36,481 nt of DNA from Halovenus rubra (GTDB lineage: Archaea; Halobacteriota; Halobacteria; Halobacteriales; Haloarculaceae). The notes under the pieces were generated by a model. It saw only the letters and a program-made list of their open reading frames with translations. It did not search any database and was not told the DNA's origin. The stretch spans positions 1 through 36,481 of the forward strand of contig NZ_JAODIY010000042.1 of the NCBI RefSeq assembly GCF_026586665.1, given 5' to 3'. The translations under genes were made by a program, and so were the position numbers. Positions 9,091-30,431 of this stretch are shown here, piece after piece; positions within the stretch are counted from its first letter, which is position 1; each line of letters starts with the position of its first letter.

Positions 9091-11463
9091 TCAGGCGTCG
9101 ATGATTCGATCGGGCTCAATCCGGGACAACCGCATCGCGTTCCCGGTGACGCCGAGGCTCATCCCCATATCTCCGACAACGACTGCCAGCGCAACGCTGA
9201 CCAGGCCCAGCGGCACGCCTAGCGCGAGTAGGAGCTTCACGCCGAGGCTGGCCCAGATGTTTTGCCGGATCACACCGTTGGCCGTATGCGACAGATCGTA
9301 CAGGTACGGGAGTTTCCCGATGTCGTCGCCCATCAACGCAATATCAGCCGTTTCGAGGGCGGTGTCGGTGCCCGCCGCGCCCATCGCGATGCCGACCTCC
9401 GCAGTGGCGAGCGCGGGGGCGTCATTGATGCCGTCGCCGACCATCGCAACCTCCCCGTACTCCGCCTGTAACTCTTCGACTGCGTCGACCTTCTCGTCGG
9501 GCAGGAGTTCGGCGCGATACTCATCGACACCGACCTGCTCGGCGATGGCGCGGGCGGTGCCCTCGTTGTCGCCGGTCAGCATCACCACGCGCTCGACGCC
9601 CAGCTCGTGCAGGCGTTCGACAGCCCGCTTCGAGGCCGGGCGAACCTCGTCGGCGATGGCGATCGCACCCAGCAGTTCCGACTCCGTCCCGACGATGACG
9701 ACCGTCTTGCCCTCCCGCTCCAGCGCGGAGAGTGCATTCTCGGCAAACGCCCCGTCGTCGGACTCTGACGACTCTTCCGCTACGACGCCGCCGTCCGTCT
9801 CGCGGCGTGCTCGAGCGAGGTCGAAGCCCAGCTCCTCGAAGAGCGCGGGCTTGCCCGCATAGTACGTCTTGCCGTCGATCTCGCCCCGGATGCCCTTCCC
9901 CGTGAGGCTCTCGAAGCCACTCGGGTCGGGCAGGTCGCCCACGCCCGCCTCCTCAGCACGGGCGAGAATCGCCGCAGCGATGGGGTGCTCACTGCGCCGC
10001 TCCAGCCCGGCGGCGCGACGGAGCAGATCGTCCTCCGTGGTGTCACCGACCGGGACGACATCGGTGACGGCGAGTTCGCCCTTCGTGAGCGTCCCCGTCT
10101 TGTCGAGCGCGACGGCATCGACTTCGCCCATCGCCTCGAGGTAGTTGCCGCCCTTGATCAGGACGCCGTTCTTCGCGGCGCTCGTAATTCCCGACACCAC
10201 CGAGACGGGCGTCGAGATGACGAACGCACAGGGACAGGCGATCACCAGCAGGGTGAGCCCCCGGATGAACCACGTCTGCCAGTCGCTCGCGAAGGTGAAC
10301 CCGTACCCGGCCAGGTCGACCGAGATGGGGTCGGCGATGACCAGCGGCGGGATTGCGGCGGTCAGGATTGCCAGCACGACGACGAGGGGTGTGTAGTAGC
10401 CGGAGAAGCGGTCGACGAACTGCTCAGACTCGGTCTTCTTCGCCTGTGCGCCCTGGACCATCTCGATGATGCGCGAGAGCGTCGAATCGCCAGCGGTTGA
10501 GGTGACCTCTACCTCGAGGTACCCCTCTTCGTTGATCGCGCCGGCGTAGACCTCATCGCCCGTCTGCTTGTCGACGGGGACGCTCTCGCCCGTGATCGGC
10601 GACTGGTCGACTGCACTCCCGCCTTCGATAACCGTTCCGTCGAGCGGAATCTTGTCGCCGGGGCGGACGACGACGGTCTCGCCAACGTCGACCTCCTCGG
10701 CGGGAACGGTCACTTCCTCACCGTCGCGAAGGACGGTCGCCTCGTCGGGCGAGAGTTCCATCAGCTCGCGCAGGGAGTCCCGTGCCCTGTCCATCGCGTA
10801 GTCCTCGAGCAGCTCGGCGATGCTGAATAGGACGGCCAGCGTCGCCGCCTCGACGAAGTAGCCGATACCGGTCGCCGCGATGATCGCCGTTCCCATCAGC
10901 AGGTCGATGTCGAGGCTTCGGTTCTTCGCGGAGTAGTACCCGCTACGGACGACGGGGATGCCGCTGGCGGCGACGGCGCCGAGGAACAGGACATCTGCGA
11001 TGTGGAGCGGGTACTCGAGGACGCTCGCCACCGTGGCGTTCTGTCCGGTGAGGAGGAACTCAAAGAGGAGGCCGAGCGTGACGAACGCCGCGCCGAGCCA
11101 CGTCTTCTTCGCGCGAGGACTCGTCCAGACCTCCGATGGTGGCGCGATGTCGACGCCATCGGCCGCCTGGTTGTCCTCATCATCGCCCTCGGCGTCCGAG
11201 CCCCCGACGACCTCGTAGCCGGCGCCTTCAATCGCCTTGACTACGTCGGCTTCGCTAGTCCGATCAGGGTCGTACGTGACGTTGGCCGTGCCGGTGGTCG
11301 GCTGGAGCGTGACGTCAGTAATGCCGTCGACACGCTGGAGGCTCTTGTTCACCTTTTGGGCGCAAGAGGGACAGTCCATCTCGGGAACGGCGAGGCGGGC
11401 GGTCAGCTCACGTCGCTGTCCGCCGCCGCTCGTTCCTCCTGCTGCGTCCGGATTCTCTGTCAT
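9091..11463 (-). CDS. Zn2+/Cd2+-type heavy-metal P1B ATPase
   Basis: A 790-residue membrane pump that exports divalent soft metals at the expense of ATP. An N-terminal heavy-metal-associated domain carries CxxC (VPEMDCPSCAQKV, about C31 and C34). The transport motif in the membrane is ACPCAFVISTP (about 408-412). The phosphorylated aspartate is in ALDKTGTLTKG (about 453), SEHPIAAAI is the nucleotide-binding HP motif, and VGDGINDAPAL (about 675) is the hinge. CPC followed by AFVISTP, a lysine in SLGVKLLL and an aspartate in VVVGDMGMS of the last helices match the Zn/Cd/Pb (ZntA) group rather than CopA. The ATG at 11463 is chosen because GTGAGG lies just before it and a promoter palindrome lies 37 bp upstream. 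It is adjacent to an HTH-10 regulator. Confidence 0.9.
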   Translation of the reverse strand: MTENPDAAGGTSGGGQRRELTARLAVPEMDCPSCAQKVNKSLQRVDGITDVTLQPTTGTANVTYDPDRTSEADVVKAIEGAGYEVVGGSDAEGDDEDNQAADGVDIAPPSEVWTSPRAKKTWLGAAFVTLGLLFEFLLTGQNATVASVLEYPLHIADVLFLGAVAASGIPVVRSGYYSAKNRSLDIDLLMGTAIIAATGIGYFVEAATLAVLFSIAELLEDYAMDRARDSLRELMELSPDEATVLRDGEEVTVPAEEVDVGETVVVRPGDKIPLDGTVIEGGSAVDQSPITGESVPVDKQTGDEVYAGAINEEGYLEVEVTSTAGDSTLSRIIEMVQGAQAKKTESEQFVDRFSGYYTPLVVVLAILTAAIPPLVIADPISVDLAGYGFTFASDWQTWFIRGLTLLVIACPCAFVISTPVSVVSGITSAAKNGVLIKGGNYLEAMGEVDAVALDKTGTLTKGELAVTDVVPVGDTTEDDLLRRAAGLERRSEHPIAAAILARAEEAGVGDLPDPSGFESLTGKGIRGEIDGKTYYAGKPALFEELGFDLARARRETDGGVVAEESSESDDGAFAENALSALEREGKTVVIVGTESELLGAIAIADEVRPASKRAVERLHELGVERVVMLTGDNEGTARAIAEQVGVDEYRAELLPDEKVDAVEELQAEYGEVAMVGDGINDAPALATAEVGIAMGAAGTDTALETADIALMGDDIGKLPYLYDLSHTANGVIRQNIWASLGVKLLLALGVPLGLVSVALAVVVGDMGMSLGVTGNAMRLSRIEPDRIIDA

Positions 11464-11499
11464 TACCTCACGGTAGGAGTGGGAGTTCCATATGTCTTT

Positions 11500-11515
11500 G
11501 TTGGAATATTCCAAC
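11500..11515. promoter_or_regulatory. 16-bp perfect palindrome at the ATPase promoter
   Basis: GTTGGAATATTCCAAC is a perfect 16-bp palindrome, centred about 45 bp before the ATPase ATG and 8 bp past the stop codon of the regulator. Its AT-rich centre could be part of box A, with transcription start near 11480. A bound dimer would then cover the promoter. The natural candidate ligand is the adjacent HTH-10 regulator, or an ArsR-type repressor encoded elsewhere. Confidence 0.6.
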
Positions 11516-11523
11516 TGCGGCCC

Positions 11524-12273
11524 TCAGTGCGATGCCAGCCGTTCTTCCGCTACCCGCTCGCCGGCGACATGTTGCTTCGCCAAATGTTCTTCCGCCCGAC
11601 GGAGTCGGTAGGTGAGTGTTGACCGTGGCACGTCGAGATGCTCGGCGAGTTCGCCGACGTCGACCTCGCGGGGTGACTCGTAGTAGCCGTGTTCGACAGC
11701 GGCCTGGAGTGCGGCCTCCTGTGCTGGCGGCAGGCCGCTCGGTGTCCCGTCGCCTCCCCCAGCTGATGTCGTCGTATCCGCGGTGCGGAGCATCTCCATC
11801 TGGGCGCATTCCCCGACGGCAACCCCGAGGGAATCGAAGAACGCCGCCACATCGCCCTCGTCGGAGTGAATGAGCCGCCACGTGTAGTGGCGGCCCTCGT
11901 GACGGGTCTCGAACAGCACACCGTCGCCGAGGTGGTCGCGGGCGATGTGGGGGACTGAGGCACAGGCAGGGGTCCGCTCCCAGTCGGAGTAGAGGATGAG
12001 CGTGTCGTCCGTGCGGTCGAGGACACGGGTGGTCTGGGTTGCGCCGCAGTCCTCGGTGGCGAGACAGTCGGCGTAGTAGTCGCTGTTGCGAAACGCGTCC
12101 TCGATGGCGTCGAGTGCGTCCGGAGTGCCGGTGGCATGGTCGACTCGCCAGAGCTGGTCGGCAGTGGCGTGCAGCGAGAGTGAACGAACGCGAGCGTCGG
12201 GGTGGTCTGCGAGGGCGTCCGCCACCCTGTTGCAGCCGGGCTCGTATTCGAGAGCGAAGACGAGTTCGCGCAT
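11524..12273 (-). CDS. HTH-10 regulator of the metal ATPase
   Basis: A 249-residue regulator with a C-terminal HTH-10 domain: PAQEAALQAAVEHGYYESPR followed by VGELAEHLDVPRSTLTYRLR. The N-terminal 160 residues include several cysteines (GCNRVA, DCLATEDCGATQ, TPACAS, GECAQMEML) that could bind a metal. The ATG at 12273 is chosen because a TTATGT box lies about 28 bp upstream; an ATG at 12306 would place that box inside the gene. It lies immediately upstream of the Zn/Cd ATPase on the same strand, with a palindrome in the gap. It probably senses the exported metal; which one cannot be told. Confidence 0.8.
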   Translation of the reverse strand: MRELVFALEYEPGCNRVADALADHPDARVRSLSLHATADQLWRVDHATGTPDALDAIEDAFRNSDYYADCLATEDCGATQTTRVLDRTDDTLILYSDWERTPACASVPHIARDHLGDGVLFETRHEGRHYTWRLIHSDEGDVAAFFDSLGVAVGECAQMEMLRTADTTTSAGGGDGTPSGLPPAQEAALQAAVEHGYYESPREVDVGELAEHLDVPRSTLTYRLRRAEEHLAKQHVAGERVAEERLASH

Positions 12274-12334
12274 ACCCCGACTAAGGCCTGCCACGACATA
12301 ACCCATGGCTTGGGGCGATGTCTACTGGCGGGTA

Positions 12335-12656: not shown

Positions 12657-13319
12657 TTACGGCTTGCCGAGACTCGCTGTCTCGAAGGGTGATTCTCCGG
12701 TCGGAATGAGCAGCTCCTGTCGGTCTCCGACCCGCTCAGCGAGCTTCCGTTTCAGATACTGTATCGCCGTTGACGGCGTGAAGACGCCCTTATCGAGCAT
12801 GTCGCCGACGACGTCTTTGAGGGCCGCGAACTGTCCCTGTAGGTGGCCGTCGCCGACCGGCTTGCCGTCGTACCAGCGCACCGTCGCGAGCGCGCCGTTC
12901 CCGACGGTCTCTCCCTGTTCGACCGTCTCCGAGTCGTACTGCAGCCCGAACCACAGCGTCCGATAGGCGGTCACCTCGAAGGTGGGTGACACCACGAAGA
13001 TCGCCTCGTGGTGGAGATAGTCGAGGTGGTCCGCGACGATCTCGTCGAGGGTGAGCCCGGTGGCACGGGGCTTCGGCTTGACGACCGACGACGGACGATC
13101 CTCGCCGGCGAGGTAGCCGTCGACGCCATCTGCTTCGAGGCCATCGGCCAGTTCCGCCAGCAGCTGTTTCGCCCACTTCGAGTCGGTGTCGTCGCCACCG
13201 AACGGTGTTTCGGCCGAGATTCGGTGCTTGAGCTTGAGATTCGCTGCACCCCAATGAGAGTAGTGGAGCGTGTACTGTCCGTCTGTGCGTTCGTACGCAA
13301 CGAGTGCGCGGTGGCCCAT
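12657..13319 (-). CDS. DUF6735-like haloarchaeal protein
   Basis: A 220-residue protein beginning MGHRALVAYERTDGQYTLHY, followed by SHWGAANLKLK. I recognise this start as that of a family widespread on haloarchaeal plasmids (DUF6735, from memory and not checked). The middle has LDEIVADHLDYLHHEAIFVV and TAYRTLWFGLQYDSE, and the C-terminus is a basic helix (STAIQYLKRKLAERVGDRQ). No enzymatic motif is visible. The ATG at 13319 is taken because longer frames run through the hairpin element at 13356-13387 and are shadow sequence. The gene upstream ends at 13388, with a shared leader element in the gap. Confidence 0.72.
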   Translation of the reverse strand: MGHRALVAYERTDGQYTLHYSHWGAANLKLKHRISAETPFGGDDTDSKWAKQLLAELADGLEADGVDGYLAGEDRPSSVVKPKPRATGLTLDEIVADHLDYLHHEAIFVVSPTFEVTAYRTLWFGLQYDSETVEQGETVGNGALATVRWYDGKPVGDGHLQGQFAALKDVVGDMLDKGVFTPSTAIQYLKRKLAERVGDRQELLIPTGESPFETASLGKP

Positions 13320-13355: not shown

Positions 13356-13387
13356 CGCCCCGCACCCCTCCCGGGGGACGAACAACG
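13356..13387 (-). promoter_or_regulatory. C/G-rich leader element, copy B
   Basis: On the + strand, CGCCCCGCACCCCTCC is followed by CGGGGGACGAACAAC. It aligns closely with copy A at 13793-13822. On the - strand it directly follows the stop codon of the 13388 gene and ends 37 nt before the ATG at 13319. It can fold into a short G/C stem. It is probably part of the leader or a terminator of the preceding gene. Confidence 0.45.
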
Positions 13388-13768
13388 CTACTCGTCGATC
13401 GGGTCGGGGGAACTGAGGTCCGCGTGGAGGACTTCGCCGTCGCGAACGACGTACCGTTTCGCCAGCACGGGAAACCGGCACTTGGTAAATCCGGCTGTCT
13501 GGATGTCGAATTCTTCGTTCGGTTCGAGATACTCCGCGAGCGACCGGAGGAACTCGTGAGTGACGATGCCACCGTCGTAGTCAGGAAGACCGTTCTCACG
13601 GGCCTCGTACACTTCGAAGCTGTCGTAGCCCCAGATAACGAGTTCGCCGTCGTCGTCCACTTCCCAGTTGAGCGTCCCGAAGCAGTGGTTCTCACAGAGC
13701 TCGCGGACTGCCTGTGGATCCGATACGAGCGCGCCGGTCGATGTCGTTGCGGCTTGCAATGTTGCCAT
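13388..13768 (-). CDS. Hypothetical haloarchaeal accessory protein
   Basis: A 126-residue protein starting MATLQAATTSTGALVSDPQA. The core is ELCENHCFGTLNWEVDDDGE, then LVIWGYDSFEVYEARENGLP, then GGIVTHEFLRSLAEYLEP, and it ends KCRFPVLAKRYVVRDGEVLH. It appears to be a small alpha/beta protein with two conserved-looking cysteines. I cannot assign a function. It lies between two copies of the same G/C-rich leader element, suggesting that it and the 12657 gene are controlled alike. The start ATGG context matches the neighbouring genes carrying that leader. Confidence 0.6.
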   Translation of the reverse strand: MATLQAATTSTGALVSDPQAVRELCENHCFGTLNWEVDDDGELVIWGYDSFEVYEARENGLPDYDGGIVTHEFLRSLAEYLEPNEEFDIQTAGFTKCRFPVLAKRYVVRDGEVLHADLSSPDPIDE

Positions 13769-13792: not shown

Positions 13793-13828
13793 CGCCCCCG
13801 CACCCTTTCAGGGGGCGAGCAACTGCTC
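13793..13828 (-). promoter_or_regulatory. C/G-rich leader element, copy A
   Basis: CGCCCCC at 13793-13799 pairs with GGGGGCG at 13811-13817 across an 11-nt loop. A second small palindrome, GAGCA/TGCTC, follows at 13817-13828. On the - strand it lies 25 nt before the ATG at 13768. Its sequence is shared with copy B, and the stem design is shared with the element at 22265-22285. Confidence 0.45.
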
Positions 13829-14207: not shown

Positions 14208-15095
14208 TTACTGATCGGCTTCGGGTTCGGGCCCGTAGCGTGGCGTGCCGCACCGCTGACAGCCCCACATTGGCTGCCCGGTCCACTCGTCATCGGGGAC
14301 AGCCTCGAATTCGCGGAATCGATGCTTAGTCTCCCGATCACACTCTCGACACTCGAGGTGAGTTCTGTTTGGGCGCTCGCGTCGTGGCTGTTCGGTATCG
14401 GTCTTGTCAACGGATTTCTGGAGCGCAATCGCTGGCACCAGCCAGAGGTCGTTGTCTGCGTCCTCACGTAGGCTTGCAAGACGAGCTTCGGTGCGAACCT
14501 CGCTCCCGGTTTCGTCGTAGAGGAACGTCGTGTGCTCGCCGTCGTGACAGGACTGCGTCGTCTCTGTCCACGCCGTCCGCTCACGAGCAGCCGCGAGCAG
14601 CTGATTACCACATTCAGACGTGACCCGTGTCGCCGAGGGGAGCGAGGGCCACTGATCGACAAGCCGTGGGGCCGGTTCCTCGTCGAGATCATAGATTAGC
14701 TTGCAGTCATCGACTACTGGGTCATCGTCTGCCTTCGCGAGGAGGGTGGCCGCAGCAGATCCCTTCCCGACGGCGCCGTAGAACGTCGACGCCTCAACGA
14801 CTATGTGGATGATATGGAGGAGAGTCTGTTCGGCAGTCGATGTGTCCTGATCGTCGGCTGCTTCGAGATGGTTCGTGAGACAGAACCGGCACTTCGACTG
14901 GCCAGCGGGGATCGACGCTCCACAGGAATCGCACTCGGTCTCACCTTCTGTCGGGTCGTCTGGATAGCCCGCGTCGACGCCACCAGAGCGTTGCCGCCGG
15001 GGCTCGCCACTACTACTGGCGAGTTGATCGTCGGGAACGTGGGTCGCTTCGCCGAGCGGTCGGAGGGCTTCGTAGTCGGCGTACTGGTCGGTCAT
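14208..15095 (-). CDS. Double zinc-finger protein, haloarchaeal plasmid family
   Basis: A 295-residue protein with two four-cysteine zinc sites. An N-terminal one is in CDSCGASIPAGQSKCRFC and a C-terminal one has HLECRECDRETKH plus WGCQRCGTPRYG. The middle is helical (EQTLLHIIHIVVEASTFYGA) with an alanine/glycine-rich GAVGKGSAAATLLA segment. Relatives in haloarchaeal genomes are often labelled 'biosurfactant protein 1', a name that says little about function. Zinc ribbons at both ends suggest nucleic-acid or protein binding. The ATG at 15095 is chosen because box A at 15131-15139 places transcription start near 15110, after the alternative ATG at 15116. Confidence 0.7.
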   Translation of the reverse strand: MTDQYADYEALRPLGEATHVPDDQLASSSGEPRRQRSGGVDAGYPDDPTEGETECDSCGASIPAGQSKCRFCLTNHLEAADDQDTSTAEQTLLHIIHIVVEASTFYGAVGKGSAAATLLAKADDDPVVDDCKLIYDLDEEPAPRLVDQWPSLPSATRVTSECGNQLLAAARERTAWTETTQSCHDGEHTTFLYDETGSEVRTEARLASLREDADNDLWLVPAIALQKSVDKTDTEQPRRERPNRTHLECRECDRETKHRFREFEAVPDDEWTGQPMWGCQRCGTPRYGPEPEADQ

Positions 15096-15130
15096 AGAGT
15101 GATCTGGCCGTATCATGCTTCGTCTTCGGG

Positions 15131-15195: not shown

Positions 15196-16122
15196 TTAGA
15201 CAGCCAGTTCGTCCAGTGTGTCGCGGTGGGTCCGCACGGTGACCACCGAGACGTTCGCAACGTCAGCGACGTCCGACTGGGTGAGCCATTGCCCGTCTTC
15301 GCGTCCGGCTTTGTACAGACAGGCTGCAGCGAACCCGGACGGCCGAACCCCGGTGGTTGCCCCAGTCGATTCGGATGCTTCCGCCAACTGCCGAGCCCGC
15401 TGCCGGATTTGATCGGAGACGTCGAGCTCCGAGGCCAACCGCGGAACGAACGCACTGGGCGTCACGGGTTGGGCTGGCAGGCCAAGTTCCGTATTCAGCG
15501 TCGTGTATGCGTTCGTCACCCGCGATTGCTCGACGCGCGCCGACTCGGTGATGTCGTCGAGCGTTCGTGGTCGCCCGTTACACCGACACGCTCCGTAGAC
15601 ACTCGCGGCGGCCATCGCCTCAATCGACCGGCCCTGCAGGAGTTCCTCGTTCTGAGCGCTGCGGAAGAGCTGGCAGGCCTGGTCACGGATCGTCTCGGAT
15701 AGTTCGAGCGCACTACTGATCCGGCGGACTTCACTAAGCCCGTGTGCGAGGTTGCGTTCAGCTTTCGACTGAAACCGCCCACGGGTCTGTTCACGCCGCA
15801 TCCGAGCGAGCCGCCGTCGCTTCTGTCCTGAGAGTTCGTTCCCGTTCGCATCGGTCCCGCGGCCGATCTCCGTCGACAACCCTCGATCGTGTCGTGCCGC
15901 GGTCAACGGAGCGCCCGTGCGCTCCCGTTCGTCTTCGTCGAACCCTCGCCACTCTGGCCCGTGGTCGATCCGCTGCTCGTCGATGACGAGCCCACACTCC
16001 TCGCAGATGGTTTCGACTGCGTTGGTAGTGACCCGCCCGTCGCACTCGGGACACAGGTTAGCGCTCGACTCCGTCTGGACGTCCTCATCGAAGTCAGTTT
16101 CGTAGATGTCTCTGATTGCCAT
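15196..16122 (-). CDS. tfb: Transcription initiation factor TFB
   Basis: A 308-residue archaeal TFIIB homologue that bridges TBP-bound box A and RNA polymerase. The N-terminal zinc ribbon has C24 and C27 (LCPECDGR) and C40 and C43 (ICEECGLVID). The B-finger/linker region follows (HGPEWRGFDEDERERTGAP), then two cyclin repeats: the first ending around AAASVYGACRCNGRPRTLDD, and the second with AACLYKAGREDGQWLTQSDV and a C-terminal recognition helix VSVVTVRTHRDTLDEL. The start MAIRDIYETD at 16122 is typical of haloarchaeal TFBs. Haloarchaea carry several TFBs; a copy inside an element could direct polymerase to element promoters (inference). Its promoter has a palindromic operator. Confidence 0.93.
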   Translation of the reverse strand: MAIRDIYETDFDEDVQTESSANLCPECDGRVTTNAVETICEECGLVIDEQRIDHGPEWRGFDEDERERTGAPLTAARHDRGLSTEIGRGTDANGNELSGQKRRRLARMRREQTRGRFQSKAERNLAHGLSEVRRISSALELSETIRDQACQLFRSAQNEELLQGRSIEAMAAASVYGACRCNGRPRTLDDITESARVEQSRVTNAYTTLNTELGLPAQPVTPSAFVPRLASELDVSDQIRQRARQLAEASESTGATTGVRPSGFAAACLYKAGREDGQWLTQSDVADVANVSVVTVRTHRDTLDELAV

Positions 16123-16161
16123 GGTTCTCACCGTGTTCAGGGAACTTGCCAGTACGGCGAG

Positions 16162-16189
16162 CCCCTCACCCATTGAGGGGTAAATAAAC
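16162..16189 (-). promoter_or_regulatory. TFB promoter: box A followed by palindromic operator
   Basis: On the - strand GTTTATTTA (16181-16189) is a strong box A. Immediately downstream lies a perfect inverted repeat, CCCCTCA and TGAGGGG (16162-16168 and 16174-16180) with a 5-nt spacer. The repeat fills the interval between box A and the expected start site near 16157, which is the classic position for a repressor that blocks initiation. The TFB leader would be about 35 nt. Confidence 0.65.
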
Positions 16190-16250: not shown

Positions 16251-17630
16251 ATGCCCAACGACACTGACCCACTCTCTCAGGCAATCCACGACCAGCTTCT
16301 GGAACTTCTCCAAGAAGGAGAACTCGATGAGGAACCCACCGAAGACGAGATCGCGGAAGCTACCAGCGAGGTCATTGAGGCTGTTGGGGATAGTATGTAC
16401 CAGCAGGTCCGCGAGGATGACGAGGGATTGCGACGGCTCTATGAAACCAAGGCAGAATTTCAGCGCGGGATCGAAGATCGCTGGGGGGAACCTTTGGAAC
16501 TGCTTGAACGGTTCATTATCTGGTCGCAGGAAACGGGTGATGCAATCAACTCGGAATATCGGCTCCAGGCAGCTCAGGAACAGGACTTCGTCTTTGACGC
16601 TCTGACGCGACTTCACGCACGGGCAGTACAGGTCGCGATGGAGATCCACCACCTGCTCAAAGGCGGATTTGCTGATGGAGCCTTTGCCCGATGGAGATCC
16701 CTTCACGAACTCTCAATTACCACTTCCTTCATCAAGCAAGCAGGCTCCGACACAGCCGAGCGTTTTCTGCACTACCGGTATCTCTGGGAATACTACTTCG
16801 CTCAGACGTATCAAGAACACGTAGACGACCTTGATGAGGAACAGATCGCGGATGAGACGATGGCCTCACTCGAAGAGGGGAAAGTGGAGCTGGTAGAGCG
16901 GTTTGGATCCGATTTCGACGATAACGGGTACGGAACCGGGTGGGCGGCAGACGCATACGAGGGTGGTGGCGGGCCGTCGATTAGGGGCCTCCAGGAAGCT
17001 GGCGATCTGGACCACTACCAGCCATATTACCGGTTAGCCAGCGAATCGGTCCATGGAGGGTCGAAGGGGACGCTTGACCGACTCGGTATCATCGATATAC
17101 CCGACGTTGAACAGCCCGACCTTCTACTGGCTGGCCCGTCGAACGCAGGGTTGGACCGTCCAGGCCAGTTAACGGTGGTCTCCTTGGCACAAATCACGTT
17201 TGCGTTCATCGAGTGGCAGTCGTCTGCGACCCATGTGGCGGAAATGAAGGGAATGGAACAACTCGTGAGCGACATCCAAGATGCGTTCGCAGCGGCTGCC
17301 GAAGAACTAGAGGAGGACGAACGAGACCGACTGGAGGAGTGGGCCGATCAAGATATCGTCGATATTGCTCTAAACTACGTCGGCGCGCCAGTGCTGTTCA
17401 CCGATGAGTTCGTACGTGAGCAGACCGAGTTCGAGTCACAATCGGCGTTTGAGAACGCACTTCCGATCTACCTTGACGAGATGATGGATGTAGACGATCT
17501 TCCAGAGGCCGTGGACACAACGATTCGAACCAATTCCGATTACAGCTCCCTCGAAGAGCTGGTTGATGCTGCTTTCGAAGAATGGGTTTACCGAGAGGTC
17601 GACCTCTCTGAGTTCGATGTCGATTCGTGA
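16251..17630 (+). CDS. DUF5677-like protein, lone + strand cargo gene
   Basis: A 459-residue soluble protein. The centre matches my recollection of the DUF5677 pattern: AVQVAMEIHHLLKGGFADGA, then FARWRSLHELSITTSFIKQ, the paired HYRYLWEYYFAQTYQEH, and later YYRLASESVHGGSKG. The N-terminal 90 residues are acidic and helical, and the C-terminal 100 include EEDERDRLEEWADQDIVDIA. No catalytic motif is known to me. It is the only + strand gene between 12335 and the right end, inserted between the TFB promoter and the RPA-like gene, and its base composition looks lower in GC. That suggests cargo; genes of this type occur near defence genes, but a defence role here is conjecture. Confidence 0.7.
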   Translation: MPNDTDPLSQAIHDQLLELLQEGELDEEPTEDEIAEATSEVIEAVGDSMYQQVREDDEGLRRLYETKAEFQRGIEDRWGEPLELLERFIIWSQETGDAINSEYRLQAAQEQDFVFDALTRLHARAVQVAMEIHHLLKGGFADGAFARWRSLHELSITTSFIKQAGSDTAERFLHYRYLWEYYFAQTYQEHVDDLDEEQIADETMASLEEGKVELVERFGSDFDDNGYGTGWAADAYEGGGGPSIRGLQEAGDLDHYQPYYRLASESVHGGSKGTLDRLGIIDIPDVEQPDLLLAGPSNAGLDRPGQLTVVSLAQITFAFIEWQSSATHVAEMKGMEQLVSDIQDAFAAAAEELEEDERDRLEEWADQDIVDIALNYVGAPVLFTDEFVREQTEFESQSAFENALPIYLDEMMDVDDLPEAVDTTIRTNSDYSSLEELVDAAFEEWVYREVDLSEFDVDS

Positions 17631-23925: not shown

Positions 23926-26900
23926 TCATGACTCAGATCCTTCTTTAGACCGGATGCAGACACCAGTGTAATGCCGTACGGGTTCCCCGTCGATTCGTTT
24001 CTTCGCGGAGTCCACCTCCATGTGGGTGTTGAGCTTCCGTGTGAACCAGCTCTTATTCAACGGATCGTCGATGCCATGGGCCTCTGCCCAGTCGTTATAG
24101 AGGCCGAATACGTCATCTTTCGGCACGGCTCCATCCGCGTCTTCGATAAGATAGTCGTCGACGAACGATTCGAACGACGGTGGCGATGAGTTTTCCTGCT
24201 GTTCCTCGACCGTGCTATCTGGCTGGTGGGTCTGGTCAGCTGGTTCTTCAGCGGCCGCTGATTCGGGCGATACCGGACGAAGCGACCCATCGGTGATTGC
24301 CGAGAGGGGCTGCTTCTCACCGTCTTCATACACGACCGATTCCACCTCATCGTGAAGGATAACGATGCCATACGTCGAACGTGTGTAGTCTGGTACGGGG
24401 AGTTTGGCTTCGGGGACGAATGGCTTCTTGACACGCACCCAGCTGTCCTCGAACGCCGATTTCGTCTCGTAGATGTGTTGTTCACCGGGCTCGTATACGG
24501 CGTACTCGTCGGCAGCGTGGTCGTAGCTGTAGATGGCTGGCACACGATCCTTCGAGAGGGTCGCAAGCGAAGGGATTCGGATGTGTTCCGTCCCGCTGGC
24601 ATCATGAAGGACGATTTCGTCGCCATCACGCCGCCAGATGTTCTGAGTCCCGTTCTCGTCGCCGTTCGCCGGTCGCACGGCCGTCACCCCACCTTCTTCG
24701 GTCGCTCCACCGTTGAACGTGAGATTCGAGTCAGTCGTGTAGAACCGTGTCTCACCATTCTGGAGGGTACGAACGAGTGGTGTGAGAATGCCGTCGACAC
24801 GCTCGGCCCACTCAGTTTCGTCGTTTCCTGAGCGAACGACAAACAGCGGGATATCCCCTGCTTCTTGGGCTTTCCGGAGATTCGTGAGCACCTTTGCGGG
24901 ATTCTCGGGTGTCGTCGTTTCGACTTCGATGGCGAATCGGTCTGCAACGTCGGGGTGGCTCGCCCTCGCGTCAGGTTTCTCGCTGCCATCCTGTGCGAGG
25001 ATCGAGACAGTGAAGCCGAGTGCGGTGAGCTCTTCTTCGATCTGGAGGAGTGCTGCGTCGTGGACACTCCCACCAGCGGCCTGCACGCTACCAGTATCGG
25101 GCGTCGCGACCTCTTCGCCGGCGTCAGTGAGGCGGATGCGGAGCTCGTCGGCGTCGATATCGACGGTCGTATCGAGGTATCGTGATCGTTCTCGGATGTC
25201 CGCGAGTGCATCATACGATGGTGGTTCGGCGTCGACGTCGTCGAAGAGCCGCCTGAGTTCGTCGTCAACTGCTTCAACGGCCACCCAGCCGTTCTCCTCG
25301 CGGCATCCTTCTTGAAGCTGGAGACTCCGAACCACCTTGGCAATCGCGACGTCCAGGTCGTCGCTCGCGATATCGAGGCCCTCGTGTCCGTCGGCAGGTG
25401 TGCTCGTTGTTGCGGTGTCTGGCTCAGCCGGCACACCGTGTTCGTCGCTGATGTTCTCGTGCATAGAGGAGAGTGTCTCGGTGAACTGCTCCTCTTCACG
25501 CTCAGTGAGCGGGGATTCGCTCTCGGGGTGCCCCGGTGGAATCGGGAGTGGTTCGAGACTGAACGGATACGGCCCTGTTTCACCGAACGTCGGGCTTGGC
25601 AAGCTGGCGATCCACTCTCCGCGCGGCAACGAACGAATCCGATTGGCGAAATCCGCGGGGTCCATCTCTTCGTGGGCCATCGCTCGCGCCAGTTCCCGGT
25701 CGACGTTGATTTTCCCGATGAGCGAACTGCCGATGTTGTTCAGAGCATTCAGGTAGATCTTCCGCCCACCTTCAGCCTCCATCTGTTCGGGGAACTGCAT
25801 CGACAGACCAACAGAGAGCCGGAATCCCCGCCCTTTCTCGAGGAGATCGTTCATGATGTCGGAGACCACGACCGACGCTGCCTCGTCGACGAGCAAGTTC
25901 ACGACGTAGTCGTCCGAGTGCTGGGAGAGCGCCTGTTTGCGGTCCTTGAGGGCTGCATCGAGATTGGTCAGGATCACACCGGTCATGATCCGGGCGGCGT
26001 CGTCGCGGAGGTCGCCGAGGTCGAAGAGGATGACCGTATCCTCGTCGAGGACATCCCGAAAGTCGAACCGGTTCTCGGTATTGTTGAAGATCTGCCGCAG
26101 GTGCGTATCCTGTGAAATGTACGCAAGGCGGTTTCCGACACCGCCCATCACGTTCGCGAAGGTGTTCGAATCTAACTGGAGTTGCCGTCGAATCGTCCGG
26201 GTGACTTCCTCGTCGCTTGACCGTGGAGCGTCGCCGATGTTCTCGTTCGGTGGCCCGGCCTCCCAAAGCTGGTCGACGACGTGTTCGAGCTGTCGGTGGG
26301 CGAAGTAGTCCGTCGATGCTCGGTACTGCCCGTTCTCACGGCCGTATTTCTCGTCGAACAGTGCCTTGATGAGTGTCTTGATGAGGGTTGGGGCTACGGT
26401 CGCCCGCTCGTAGCGGTCGGTTCCCATCACGAGCTTCAAAATCTCCTCGTAGTGGTCGGCCTTCCGTTGGACGGCGTCTTCGCGGCGCCGTCCACTCTCC
26501 ATCGACGGTTCGAGATTGAAAAACGAGAACCCGGGGAGGACGTCCGGGATCGGGAAGTGGACGACGTTCTCTTCGAGGTCGGTCATTCCGAACCGGCGTG
26601 CGTGAGCCCGCATGTAGTTCTGGGCCATGTCGTCGTTCTTCGGAATGATGAGGATCGTCGGCCCCTCGGTGTTGTTGTACAGCGACAGCATATCGTTGAT
26701 GAGGGCTTTCGACTTCCCAGAGCCGGTTGTTCCGAACCGGCCGTAATGAGTGGGCAGCAGTCCGGGTGGAATGTGTGTCGGCTCGTCTTCGGCCTCGCCG
26801 GTGTCGTCGAGGGCATACCCGATTGCCATCCCGTCGCGGAATTCACTCATGAGGTCCTGGTGGGGGCGTGGCAATGGATTCCGACTCTGCTGTTCCGCAC

Positions 26901-28245
26901 GCGTCCCACGTGCCCCCTCGACAGTCAGCTGTTCCGAGGAGGGCACGAGTACGAAATTCGCGAGTTCTCGGCCACTCAGGACGAACTCGGGTCGGGTCGT
27001 CCCACGGCCGGTCGTGATCTCACGATCCAAGAGCCGCTGCAGCGCCGCTCGTGCGTTCCGTTCTTTCGTGGCTGCCCGGAAGCCGCTGTCGCGTACCCGT
27101 TCGGCCGCAACCTCGTAGTACGGTCCGTCAAGCGGGTCGAATACCGGGACAAGTGATTGCATCCGATCATCGAGATCATCGCGACCGTCGTCCCCGGACG
27201 GAATCCCGATCGCTCGGATGTTCGCGGTGAACGACCGCTTCGGATTTTTCGCCTCGATTGCCGCGACACGTTTTGCAACGGCGTCGCTCAGCTGGTTTCT
27301 GTCCCGGCTCTCCGACTGATCGTCGAGTTCGAAAAGGGAGCCAATAATCTCCTGAGCGAGTGTGTCTCGTCCGTCGATGACGTCCTCCTTGCGAAGGTCG
27401 GCATCGGACTGCCAGCTCTCGCGTCGCTGGAAGACGGCCTGGAACGCTACTGGTGCTGTCGCCTCCATCAGGTGGTCGACAAGCGACGCGAGCGCACCAC
27501 CTGGCTGATCGACGGCTGGGAGTTCTGCTTCGTCGTCGGCAGTGAATGGCGAGAGTGAGGTCATCCAGTCCTGTTTCCGAGTGGCCGACCCCTGCCACCG
27601 CACGCCGAGTGGGGAGACGGTCTTGGTCGCTGGCCGGGCGAGTATCGTCCCCTCTGTTGTCACCGTTGGTTTGGCAAGCGTCGTGAGTGGCTCATCCTCG
27701 GGAATCGCATCTGGTGGGGCGAGTTCGAGGGCGGTGTCTCCGATCTCGATGATGTGGTCGGCAGACAGGTCGCCGACCGTCCCTCCTTCCGCGACTGATT
27801 GGGCGTCTGCTTGCCTCGCTTGACTGTCTTCGTCAGTCCCACGTTCGTATTGCTCGTCAGGACCGAACTCGTACGTGAGATCGCCCGACTCATAGTGATC
27901 GACGAATGTCTCTCGGTCGAATTCCACAGGCTGCACGAGTCGGGATGCGACGTCGACTTTGGTACGCTCGATGTCGAACGTCTCGGGATAGATCGACCGG
28001 AGACGTTTCTCAAGCGTATCCAGATGGTCGTCAGCACCGTAGTAGAATTCGACGGGGTCGTCTGCACCCTCGCTGAGCGCGAGGAATTCGAATCGTAGCG
28101 GTGTTTTGCTGTGTAGCGGATTGAGTTTGTCAGCTAGCCCTGTCGAGTTCGTTAAGGTCAGTTTGTGGAGACTCTCCAGTGCCTGCGGCAGCCGCTCCGG
28201 ATTGAGGCGTTCGGAGGTAGGCGTCACGCGGAGGTACTCACGCAT
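23926..28245 (-). CDS. Giant coupling-protein-like ATPase with nuclease-like and primase-C-type domains
   Basis: 1439 residues. An N-terminal region of about 500 residues, with no motif I know, precedes a P-loop ATPase: Walker A FGTTGSGKSKAL (about 504-511), Walker B YVVNLLVDEAASV (about 783), then LSVGLSMQFPEQ and LPRGEWIASLPSP, as in VirD4/TraG/HerA-type DNA pumps. A winged-helix-like linker follows. A second region resembles a PD-(D/E)xK nuclease fold (EEELTALGFTVSI, KPDARAS, RFAIEVETTTPEN near 1100), though the usual lysine is not evident. The last 70 residues (DGAVPKDDVFGLYNDWAEAH, KSWFTRKLNTHMEV, RIDGEPVRHYTGV) match the winged helix at the C-terminus of D5-type phage and plasmid primases. 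Its ATG overlaps the VirB4-like stop by 8 nt. Confidence 0.75.
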   Translation of the reverse strand: MREYLRVTPTSERLNPERLPQALESLHKLTLTNSTGLADKLNPLHSKTPLRFEFLALSEGADDPVEFYYGADDHLDTLEKRLRSIYPETFDIERTKVDVASRLVQPVEFDRETFVDHYESGDLTYEFGPDEQYERGTDEDSQARQADAQSVAEGGTVGDLSADHIIEIGDTALELAPPDAIPEDEPLTTLAKPTVTTEGTILARPATKTVSPLGVRWQGSATRKQDWMTSLSPFTADDEAELPAVDQPGGALASLVDHLMEATAPVAFQAVFQRRESWQSDADLRKEDVIDGRDTLAQEIIGSLFELDDQSESRDRNQLSDAVAKRVAAIEAKNPKRSFTANIRAIGIPSGDDGRDDLDDRMQSLVPVFDPLDGPYYEVAAERVRDSGFRAATKERNARAALQRLLDREITTGRGTTRPEFVLSGRELANFVLVPSSEQLTVEGARGTRAEQQSRNPLPRPHQDLMSEFRDGMAIGYALDDTGEAEDEPTHIPPGLLPTHYGRFGTTGSGKSKALINDMLSLYNNTEGPTILIIPKNDDMAQNYMRAHARRFGMTDLEENVVHFPIPDVLPGFSFFNLEPSMESGRRREDAVQRKADHYEEILKLVMGTDRYERATVAPTLIKTLIKALFDEKYGRENGQYRASTDYFAHRQLEHVVDQLWEAGPPNENIGDAPRSSDEEVTRTIRRQLQLDSNTFANVMGGVGNRLAYISQDTHLRQIFNNTENRFDFRDVLDEDTVILFDLGDLRDDAARIMTGVILTNLDAALKDRKQALSQHSDDYVVNLLVDEAASVVVSDIMNDLLEKGRGFRLSVGLSMQFPEQMEAEGGRKIYLNALNNIGSSLIGKINVDRELARAMAHEEMDPADFANRIRSLPRGEWIASLPSPTFGETGPYPFSLEPLPIPPGHPESESPLTEREEEQFTETLSSMHENISDEHGVPAEPDTATTSTPADGHEGLDIASDDLDVAIAKVVRSLQLQEGCREENGWVAVEAVDDELRRLFDDVDAEPPSYDALADIRERSRYLDTTVDIDADELRIRLTDAGEEVATPDTGSVQAAGGSVHDAALLQIEEELTALGFTVSILAQDGSEKPDARASHPDVADRFAIEVETTTPENPAKVLTNLRKAQEAGDIPLFVVRSGNDETEWAERVDGILTPLVRTLQNGETRFYTTDSNLTFNGGATEEGGVTAVRPANGDENGTQNIWRRDGDEIVLHDASGTEHIRIPSLATLSKDRVPAIYSYDHAADEYAVYEPGEQHIYETKSAFEDSWVRVKKPFVPEAKLPVPDYTRSTYGIVILHDEVESVVYEDGEKQPLSAITDGSLRPVSPESAAAEEPADQTHQPDSTVEEQQENSSPPSFESFVDDYLIEDADGAVPKDDVFGLYNDWAEAHGIDDPLNKSWFTRKLNTHMEVDSAKKRIDGEPVRHYTGVCIRSKEGSES

Positions 28246-30431
28246 CGTCGTCACCTCCCGCTGCGCCACCATCAGTCTCTGCTGGCGTCTGCTCAGGTGG
28301 GCGTTGTCCATTGTCGGTCGCTCGGCTTTCAATATCGTCTTGGAACGCCTGCACGTCCGCGTCCACGGCGTTCTCACCAGTCCCGGGGAGTGAGGCTCGC
28401 CGTTGCTCGGTTGGCTCGAAGTCGATGACCTGCTTCTCCTTGGGCATCGCTTTGACCTGGATCCCACGCCACTCGCCGTCGACGCCAACCAGTGCTTCGG
28501 AGAAGCCGGCGTCCTCGTTGCCGGGGACGGCGTCCTGGACGAACCGCATCTGTGCGTAGTTCAGCCCGAACTCGTCGGCCCACTCCTTGTCCATCCCGTC
28601 GAGGCGGTGGAACTGCTTGACGGCACACTGATCGAGGATCGCCTCGCTTTCGGCGTGCTCGAAGAACTCGTCGACGGTCTGGGTGACCAGCCGGATCGAG
28701 AGGTCGTGGTGGCGGTGGTGCCGGAACACCGTCTCGAGGAACGCCAGACTTGCGGCGTCCTGCATGATGTAGCGCGCTCGCGGCCTCTTTCTCCGAGACC
28801 TTCGCCCGTTCGTACACCAGCGAGATGAGTAGCTGCATCGTCAGTGCCGTGCTGCTGTCGACGCTGCCCTCCTGCTGGGCCAGATCGAGGTAGATGACCT
28901 TCTCGTCCCGGATGTCGAAATCCGATTCTTGGCCGAGGTTGGCGTGGCGACCGTCGTCCTCGAAGGGGCGCAGCTGATCGAGGAGCCACGTCGCGTCCTC
29001 TTTGATCTTCCCTGCCTCTTCGTCGGATCGAACGACGAACTCCTCAGGGTCGTCGACCATGTCCTCGAAGACGTCCATCATATCACGGATGGTCGGACTC
29101 GGATTGCTGTGCGTCGAGATGTCGTCGGTGATGCCGTTGCGCTGGTAGGCACGTTTGAGGGCGAGTTCGAGCGTAGTGCGCCGGTCTCCCAGTGAGATGC
29201 CCCGGAGGGCAAAGAAGTTCGTCAGGAAGCTCATCGCGTCGTCGAGTTTCTCGTTGAACGGGCTCGCGTCCTCGCCCATCGCCCGCTGGACGTGTTCGGG
29301 CGTCTCCCGAATCTCCAAGGGGTTCAGCCCGAGCGTCCCGCCGACTGTGATCCGCTTGGCGTCGAGCGCCTCCGAGACACCGGCCCAGTTGTTCAGCGGC
29401 TCGAGGATGATGCCGATACGGTCCTTACTCTGCTCGATGGAGCGGATGAAGTTCTGCTTCGAACTGAACGACTTCCCCGACCCCGTGTCGCCCACGGTGA
29501 ACATCGCGTACCCGTTGTCCCGCGCGAACGGGTCGATGACCACGGGACTCTGGTTATCTTTGTGAATCCCGAACTCGACGCCGCCCTCCTCGAGAATCGT
29601 CGCGTTGTGCGGCGAGGACAGCAACGCGCCGACGGCGCCGCCGAGCGCAATCGATGTCCGCCCGAATTCGTTGTCACCAATGGGCGCGGCGGATTGGAGG
29701 GCGAGATCCTGCCGACAGATCGCCGTCTTCGGCGTGAGGTTCGCCGGGTCGTCGCGGAGCGCGCTCTTGACCGTCTGGACGGCATCTCTGAGTTCGTCTT
29801 TCTCGTCGGCCCGCACGGTGATGAACATCCCTTGGTCGAAGACGTTCGCGCCGTTCTCGACGGCCTTGTACGTCGCTGCGGCCTCGTTGGCGCGCTCTTG
29901 GAGATAGGCGCTCCGGATACTCTGTTCGAGGTCAGCATCGACCTGGAGGTCGTCAGCGATGTCCTGCAGTTCGTTCCGGGCCCGCTCCTGATTTTTCGGC
30001 GTGATGTGGGCCGTCAAATCGAACTGGACATCGGTCATCTCGAAGAGGTCGCTCAGATACCCGTCGTTGGGATAGTCGGCATAGTTAGCGATGTAGAGTG
30101 TCGTCGTCCACTGTTCGCCGACCCGTGCGGCTCGCGTTTCCCACTCGACAGCTCCGGGAGCGGTGACGGTCTTGTGCGACTCGGAGATGTCGTCGAGGAG
30201 CTTGCGTTCGGCCTCGCCTTCTTCGAGTGTCTCCTCGTCGAGGACATCGGTAAAGTCCACGTCTGGTTCATCATCCGCAGTGAAGCGGTCCCACAGGTAC
30301 TTACTGCCGACGCCAAGGCCGAGACCCACTGCAAGGGCAAGTACTGCACTCTCTGCTGGTGTCAGATTCTGGAGCCACCCGGCGACGGAGCCAAGCGCGC
30401 CACCACCAGTCTGGAGGATCACGTTACGCAT
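28238..30431 (-). pseudogene. VirB4-like conjugation ATPase, disrupted at Walker B
   Basis: The gene starts at ATG 30431 with a membrane-anchor segment (AVLALAVGLGLGVGSKYLW). It then has the VirB4-type N-domain and Walker A FTVGDTGSGKSFSS (about residues 314-321), and LLDQLRPF and IRDEKVIYLDLAQQEGS downstream. After VYERAKVSEKEA the frame is lost near 28770. The family would continue with hydrophobic residues plus DEARYIM (Walker B), but only about 13 nt remain where about 27 are expected. The frame then resumes, shifted, from MQDAASLAFLETVFRHHRHH through RLVTQTVDEFF to 28238. A net 14-nt loss is the simplest reading. Without Walker B the ATPase would be inactive even if the frame were restored. 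The overlaps ATGCGTAA and ATGCGTGA couple it to its neighbours. Confidence 0.8.

Follow-up and report, generated by a model that had tools for sequence, protein, structure and literature searches.

Results

The TFB gene and its relatives

The window, by which we mean the whole stretch of DNA that we analysed, is an entire contig of 36,481 bases. It encodes a transcription factor B (TFB) with TFIIB repeats (Pfam PF00382, 9.7e-37) and a zinc ribbon (PF08271, 1.8e-12), together with type IV secretion-like genes that include a TrbL/VirB6 match as well as VirB4-like and TraD/CedB-like matches below curated cut-offs. A 1520-aa ORF (23926-28488, - strand) combines a TraD/CedB-like middle with a poxvirus-D5/primase-like C-terminal end, and at 9091-12306 (- strand) an HMA-domain P-type ATPase of the metal type adjoins an HVO_2928_N/HTH_10 regulator. 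The gene downstream of the TFB matches NCBIfam MBSP1, an odd name for a gene adjoining a plasmid TFB.

The closest named relatives of the window TFB are plasmid TFBs from Natrinema pellirubrum (96% identity) and from Natronomonas gomsonensis and Halorientalis litorea (both 95.5%), and the pHS2 TFB of Halobacterium salinarum R1 is 89% identical. Against the pNRC200 TFBs of Halobacterium NRC-1, it shares 61% identity with VNG_RS11900, which we take to be tfbE, and 43% with VNG_RS11765, presumably tfbC. Judged by pairwise identity, the window protein appears to belong with NRC-1 TfbE. Its N-terminus, MAIRDIYETDFDEDV, fits the TfbE-type signature M..R..Y...FDE, which we defined in the present analysis rather than taking it from the literature, and so do 94 of the 114 TFB loci that we compared.

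The tfbE promoter

The TFB ORF begins ATGGCAATCAGAGAC at 16122 on the - strand. The sequence-only reading had described a box A with the palindrome CCCCTCA-N5-TGAGGGG directly after it, upstream of this gene, and the sequence confirms the arrangement: in - strand order, box A (16188-16181) is followed at once by the element (16180-16162), then by 39 nt and the ATG (Table 1). The + strand across palindrome and box A is agCCCCTCAcccatTGAGGGGtaaataaacgcc. A T-rich block occupies the same place as box A in 79 aligned TfbE promoters, and we read the site as the core promoter of this TfbE-type gene. That reading had also put the palindrome between box A and the start site. Its position after box A is observed, and the start is predicted from an archaeal TATA-to-start spacing of ~26-30 nt.

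Table 1. Features around the tfbE promoter and the two further element copies in the window
Feature	Position	Strand	Basis
Box A TTTATTTA of the tfbE promoter	16181-16188	-	Sequence; reads GTTTATTTA when extended to 16189
Element CCCC-TCAAT-GGG-TGA-GGGG, i.e. the CCCCTCA-N5-TGAGGGG palindrome (CCCCTCAATGGGTGAGGGG)	16162-16180	-	Sequence and comparison
Predicted transcription start zone	~16158-16162	-	TATA-to-start spacing
Possible leader hairpin GGGGCTCGCCGTACTGGCAAGTTCCC, beginning in the right G-run of the element	16140-16165	-	ViennaRNA fold, moderate statistical support
Putative Shine-Dalgarno-like GGTGAG ahead of the ATG	16127-16132	-	Sequence reading
TfbE-type transcription factor B, 308 aa	15196-16122	-	ORF, Pfam; 61% identical to NRC-1 VNG_RS11900
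302-aa gene downstream of the TFB	14208-15116	-	NCBIfam MBSP1 'biosurfactant protein 1', 8.1e-140
Second element copy CCCCCTGAAAGGGTGCGGGG, weak box A TTGCTCG	13796-13815	-	Window pattern scan
126-aa protein behind the second copy; recurrent element-headed family	13388-13768	-	No Pfam match
Third element copy CCCCCGGGAGGGGTGCGGGG, weak box A TTGTTCGT	13358-13377	-	Window pattern scan
DUF6735 protein, 220 aa, behind the third copy	12657-13319	-	Pfam PF20509
Divergent DUF5677 gene, start ~70 bp from the element	16251-17630	+	Domain search

Searching for further sites gave a divided answer. The exact CCCCTCA-N5-TGAGGGG dyad occurs once in the 3.57-Mb genome even with one mismatch allowed, and at up to three mismatches it finds 3 matches in the window vs. 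2.17 expected, so that the dyad by itself matches about as often as chance predicts. By contrast, the relaxed pattern CCCC-N2-7-GGGNGNGGGG occurs 3 times in the window, always on the - strand, against a shuffle mean of 0.03. The two additional copies head the genes for a 126-aa protein and a DUF6735 protein, bearing out the expectation that other genes of the mobile element would carry the site; the window pattern scan found none upstream of the 302-aa MBSP1 gene.

Conservation at TFB loci

To place the site among its relatives, we compared 114 distinct TFB loci, a sample of the TFBs in the 146 family genomes made up of the best of the relatives list, 40 contrast loci (26 with an alignment starting at the N-terminus and 14 starting later), own-genome paralogues and named plasmid records. 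In relatives ranging from 51% to 100% identity, an upstream C-run and then GGG-YG-N-GGGG directly follow a T-rich box A. Of the 94 TfbE-type loci, 80 had a C-run and then the core GGG[TC]G[ACT]GGGG, the remaining 14 being recognisable variants; another strict pattern recovered 82 of the 94, the rest being visible variants, and none of the 20 non-TfbE-type TFB loci carried the element. Related TFB genes have therefore kept the element, an outcome that removes one way in which the sequence-only reading could have failed. The exact 7-bp dyad was found at only 15 of the 94 TfbE-type loci. The CCCCTCA/TGAGGGG pattern on which the reading was built is thus ruled out as the conserved unit and is a sub-clade feature; what is conserved instead is the asymmetric motif C4-spacer-GGG-YGM-GGGG.

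Within the core, pairwise identity averaged 0.96 among 30 TfbE loci whose proteins are at least 70% identical and 0.91 among 46 loci with less than 62%, compared with 0.26-0.34 over the 30 nt preceding box A in the same comparison. Such conservation puts the site beyond chance. A chance or neutral G/C-rich stretch, for which the chance-level dyad count in the window might speak, is scarcely credible given the window shuffles, this core conservation and the class-wide control described below.

The same distinction between TFB types holds within NRC-1 pNRC200, where, in the stretch read, the element is present at the VNG_RS11900 promoter and absent at that of the other TFB, VNG_RS11765. A different TFB paralogue, represented by an own-genome copy and relatives with ~50-53% identity and no FDE N-terminus, has a separate palindrome, ACCTACCGGTTACCGGTAGGT, usually ~90 nt above the start and above the box A of that paralogue. 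A simple pattern for it matched 11 of 15 loci of that paralogue and none of the 94 TfbE-type loci.

Anatomy and direction of the element

The element could be parsed at 81 of the 114 TFB loci (79 after de-duplication, 71 with stricter runs), the unparsed loci being non-TfbE loci and element variants. Its consensus is C4-6, then 1-6 nt usually holding R-A, G3-5, [TC]G[AC] with one TGT exception, and G4-6, for a span of 18-23 nt. The gap between the two G-runs was exactly 3 nt in all parsed sites, whereas the left spacer varied from 1 to 6 nt. Within the plasmid TfbE clade, promoters of tfbE are mostly of the TGA or CGA form, those of the other genes mostly of the TGC form. A box A followed by the inverted element was found at 33 places with up to two mismatches, nearly all of them the reverse side of DUF6735 sites, at which TGGATC mimics a box A, and the same search returned none with 0 or 1 mismatch. 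With no credible inverted copies at box A, the element is read in one direction.

Some dyad character extends past the runs. At TFB sites, the flank was complementary at outer position 2 in 29 of 71 cases vs. 15.8 expected from shuffles; at non-TFB sites, it was complementary at position 1 in 45 of 80 (29.0 expected) and at position 2 in 35 of 80 (27.0 expected). In ViennaRNA folds of 68 non-redundant sites, the right G-run paired with the leader in 60 vs. 46.9 expected, and the mean MFE was -8.9 vs. -7.0 in shuffles that preserve mononucleotide content only. Just 42 of the 68 sites fell below their own shuffle mean, and leader folding was weak in several gene families. We treat flank complementarity and leader pairing as moderate signals, and the shuffles disregard shared ancestry. 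The right G-run often opened a predicted leader hairpin, the sequence of which differed between gene families. Rfam gave no match to a known RNA family in the window.

Spread beyond TFB genes

Exact CCCCTNNNNGGGTGAGGGG occurs at 24 places in the 146 family genomes. TFB genes, one broken TFB gene and short TFB remnants account for 22 of these. At three loci with broken or remnant TFB genes, box A and element persist. Relaxed searches ruled out a site confined to TFB genes, with no regulon. When three mismatches were allowed, box A plus element was found at 114 places in 60 of the 146 genomes, compared with 4 for a reversed-letter control, and the TGC form at 95 places in 53 genomes, 88 of them away from a TfbE start, compared with 0 for the control. 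Across the class, 169 of the 391 Halobacteria genomes and 51 of the 86 genera had the element, with no control matches. Of 208 motif occurrences, 158 passed the box A filter; the 50 that failed include many TFB and DUF6735 sites at which box A is weak.

A gene-blind scan for exact matches returned 48 stretches from 84,980 bacterial and archaeal genomes; all have haloarchaeal record titles, and they head at least 23 members of the 126-aa family and 4 TfbE-type TFBs. Families that recur behind the element are the 126-aa family, DUF6735, DUF6166, DUF6610, DUF7389, an HNH protein and a SWIM protein, along with TnpB-like proteins (Pfam Cas12f1-like_TNB) and a metallopeptidase judged ArdC-like by eye (in Pfam, a sub-threshold M78 match only). 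The same promoter build is thus common to several unrelated genes. Since some of these genes look ArdC-like, we considered a single-stranded-DNA promoter of the plasmid leading-region kind, but the position of box A outside the dyad led us to drop this reading. A virus-borne element was likewise rejected after exact patterns gave 0 matches in two scans of viral contigs. Three halovirus records do contain a TFB, a distant one at 33% identity.

Co-occurrence with TfbE-type TFBs

We searched for TfbE-type proteins with a profile built from 33 of them and a cut-off of ~402 bits (E 1e-119) that was set by eye and may miss divergent copies. At this cut-off, 67 of the 146 family genomes contain a TfbE-type TFB. 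Class-wide, such a TFB was found in 133 of the 169 genomes with the element vs. 49 of the 222 without (odds ratio 13). In the family, outside one genus (g3), it was present in all 27 genomes that have the element at other genes vs. 26 of the 87 without, and 55 of the 88 non-TFB sites share a contig with a TfbE-type gene. This co-occurrence supports a functional link between element and TfbE, although it is not strict, plasmid linkage confounds it, and the counts are not corrected for phylogeny.

Exceptions run in both directions. At the cut-off, 36 of the 169 element-bearing Halobacteria genomes have no TfbE-type TFB, nor in the family-wide test do 12 of 24 element-bearing genomes of genus g3, and conversely 49 genomes have TfbE and no element pattern. 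Unless divergent copies were missed, TfbE is therefore not the sole factor at these promoters. In genus g3, several copies of box A plus CCCCC-GGGTGAGGGG per genome head genes for short MSTEQQ-type proteins and other genes, though no TfbE-type TFB was found there.

Discussion

TfbE as a candidate factor for a class of promoters

These results are best read as a haloarchaeal promoter class that is linked to mobile elements and common to tfbE and other genes, in which the palindrome is one form of a directional conserved element filling the stretch from box A to the predicted start. Because the same promoter build stands at tfbE and at mobile-element genes across Halobacteria, these genes most likely form one regulon, and tfbE and the element-headed genes would be co-regulated. 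As to what acts on it, we rank TfbE first, and estimate a probability of roughly 0.4 that it is an autoregulated, sigma-factor-like alternative factor acting at promoters with box A and the element. It takes this rank because, among the TFB promoters examined, the element marks all those of TfbE-type genes and none of the others, and also because the element is directional and fills the stretch past TATA over which a TFB extends. TfbE and TBP would then work together at these promoters, that of tfbE included, with transcription starting perhaps 0-6 nt past the right G-run and the YGM step lying near -10. Archaeal TFB contacts DNA downstream of TATA and toward the start site, according to the available text of one study (PMC3542263), and that text and another (PMC4983044) give an A/T-rich pair as normal near -10 in haloarchaeal promoters. 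The weak box A at both non-TFB copies in the window counts against this reading, as does the difference in form between tfbE promoters (mostly TGA or CGA) and other genes (mostly TGC) in the plasmid TfbE clade. Nor, to our knowledge, is it established that a TFB can read a G-rich downstream element by its sequence.

The proposal that the TFB acts as a master switch for the promoters of its mobile element looks reasonable in the light of the shared element and the co-occurrence, although the element-bearing genomes in which no TfbE-type TFB was found weigh against it. A bolder version would make this a private promoter system of mobile elements, with TfbE reading a new downstream core-promoter element, C4-N-GGG-YGM-GGGG right after box A, so as to drive its own gene and others of the element, as the archaeal counterpart of an element-encoded sigma factor. 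We consider this version rather unlikely.

Possible repression or nucleic-acid structure

Second in our ranking, the element would be the operator of a repressor that is widespread in haloarchaea, or of a related family of repressors, with polymerase blocked at tfbE and the mobile-element genes until the repressor's loss or titration, for example on entry into a new cell, turned the set on. Archaeal repressors commonly act between box A and the start, which is where the element lies relative to the predicted start, and the C4/G4 dyad, its flanks complementary beyond shuffle level at the innermost one or two positions, and the occurrence of the element in genomes without TfbE all suit such an operator. 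Yet the single orientation, with inverted copies nil at 0-1 mismatch, and the variable left spacing, with half-sites at no constant distance (spacer 1-6 nt, span 18-23 nt), are unlike a rigid symmetric repressor operator. Neither was a regulator gene seen constantly beside the sites, and we know of no protein that binds the element. Repression at the tfbE promoter is possible, with the element as a candidate operator, and as a general account of the sites it is tentative.

Third, and improbable in our judgement, is a role for nucleic-acid structure, in which a hairpin or purine-motif triplex of C-run, G-run and G-run in supercoiled or single-stranded promoter DNA, a 5' hairpin in the mRNA, or both would tune initiation or stability. 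All parsed sites do have a C-run, a G-run, exactly 3 nt and a G-run, which is the general layout of intrastrand triplexes in the available part of one report (PMC4666352), and the excess of leader pairing and the lower mean MFE given above point the same way. The stems are only ~4 bp, however, and the uneven leader folding, measured against a mononucleotide-only shuffle, speaks against a general role. Unlike the element, the Escherichia coli triplex motifs, as far as that report describes them, have no promoter activity and no fixed distance to genes (PMC4666352).

Relation to known systems

Whether the multiple TFBs of haloarchaea have promoter sets in the manner of sigma factors is an old question, and the element offers a sequence-defined candidate regulon for TfbE. 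Because TfbE occurs in model strains such as Halobacterium NRC-1, the question is directly testable. The promoter tag also suggests wiring among haloarchaeal mobile-element genes and would aid the annotation of DUF6735, DUF6166 and the 126-aa family as co-regulated. The literature that we searched, which covered few subscription journals, gave no description of the element, so it may have been published elsewhere.

Among known arrangements, archaeal repressor operators of the Lrp and MDR1 types, which lie between the TATA box and the start site, resemble the element in position and partial dyad, whereas the element is directional, has variable left spacing and is common to many mobile-element genes. 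The intrastrand triplex motifs PIT, BoxC and TMECO, as set out in the available text (PMC4666352), share with it a pyrimidine run followed by two purine runs (C-run, G-run, G-run); the present element differs in its shorter stems, its fixed place at box A, its linkage to genes and its restriction to haloarchaea in the gene-blind scan.

The nearest likeness by protein is the TfbE family itself, whose NRC-1 member resembles the window TFB in sequence and has the element at its promoter. In the portions available of the respective studies, TfbE is a family of its own for which a knockout was not obtained (PMC2121645), tfbE is present in 39 of 80 genomes (PMC4230888), its transcript is higher in stationary phase (PMC2880973), and a tfbE relative is tied to a shift from acidic to alkaline pH (PMC4176423); those portions of PMC2121645 and PMC4230888 describe no promoter element or dedicated promoter class for TfbE, and the element itself appears in the portions of none of the four. 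The TfbB, TfbD and TfbG variants, in the accessible part of their description (PMC3542263), are a likeness in that paralogous TFBs go with different promoter sequences. There the differences lie upstream of TATA, in the BRE, and an A/T-rich proximal element stands near -10 (PMC3542263), whereas the element described here is G/C-rich, stands downstream of box A and occupies the proximal-element region.
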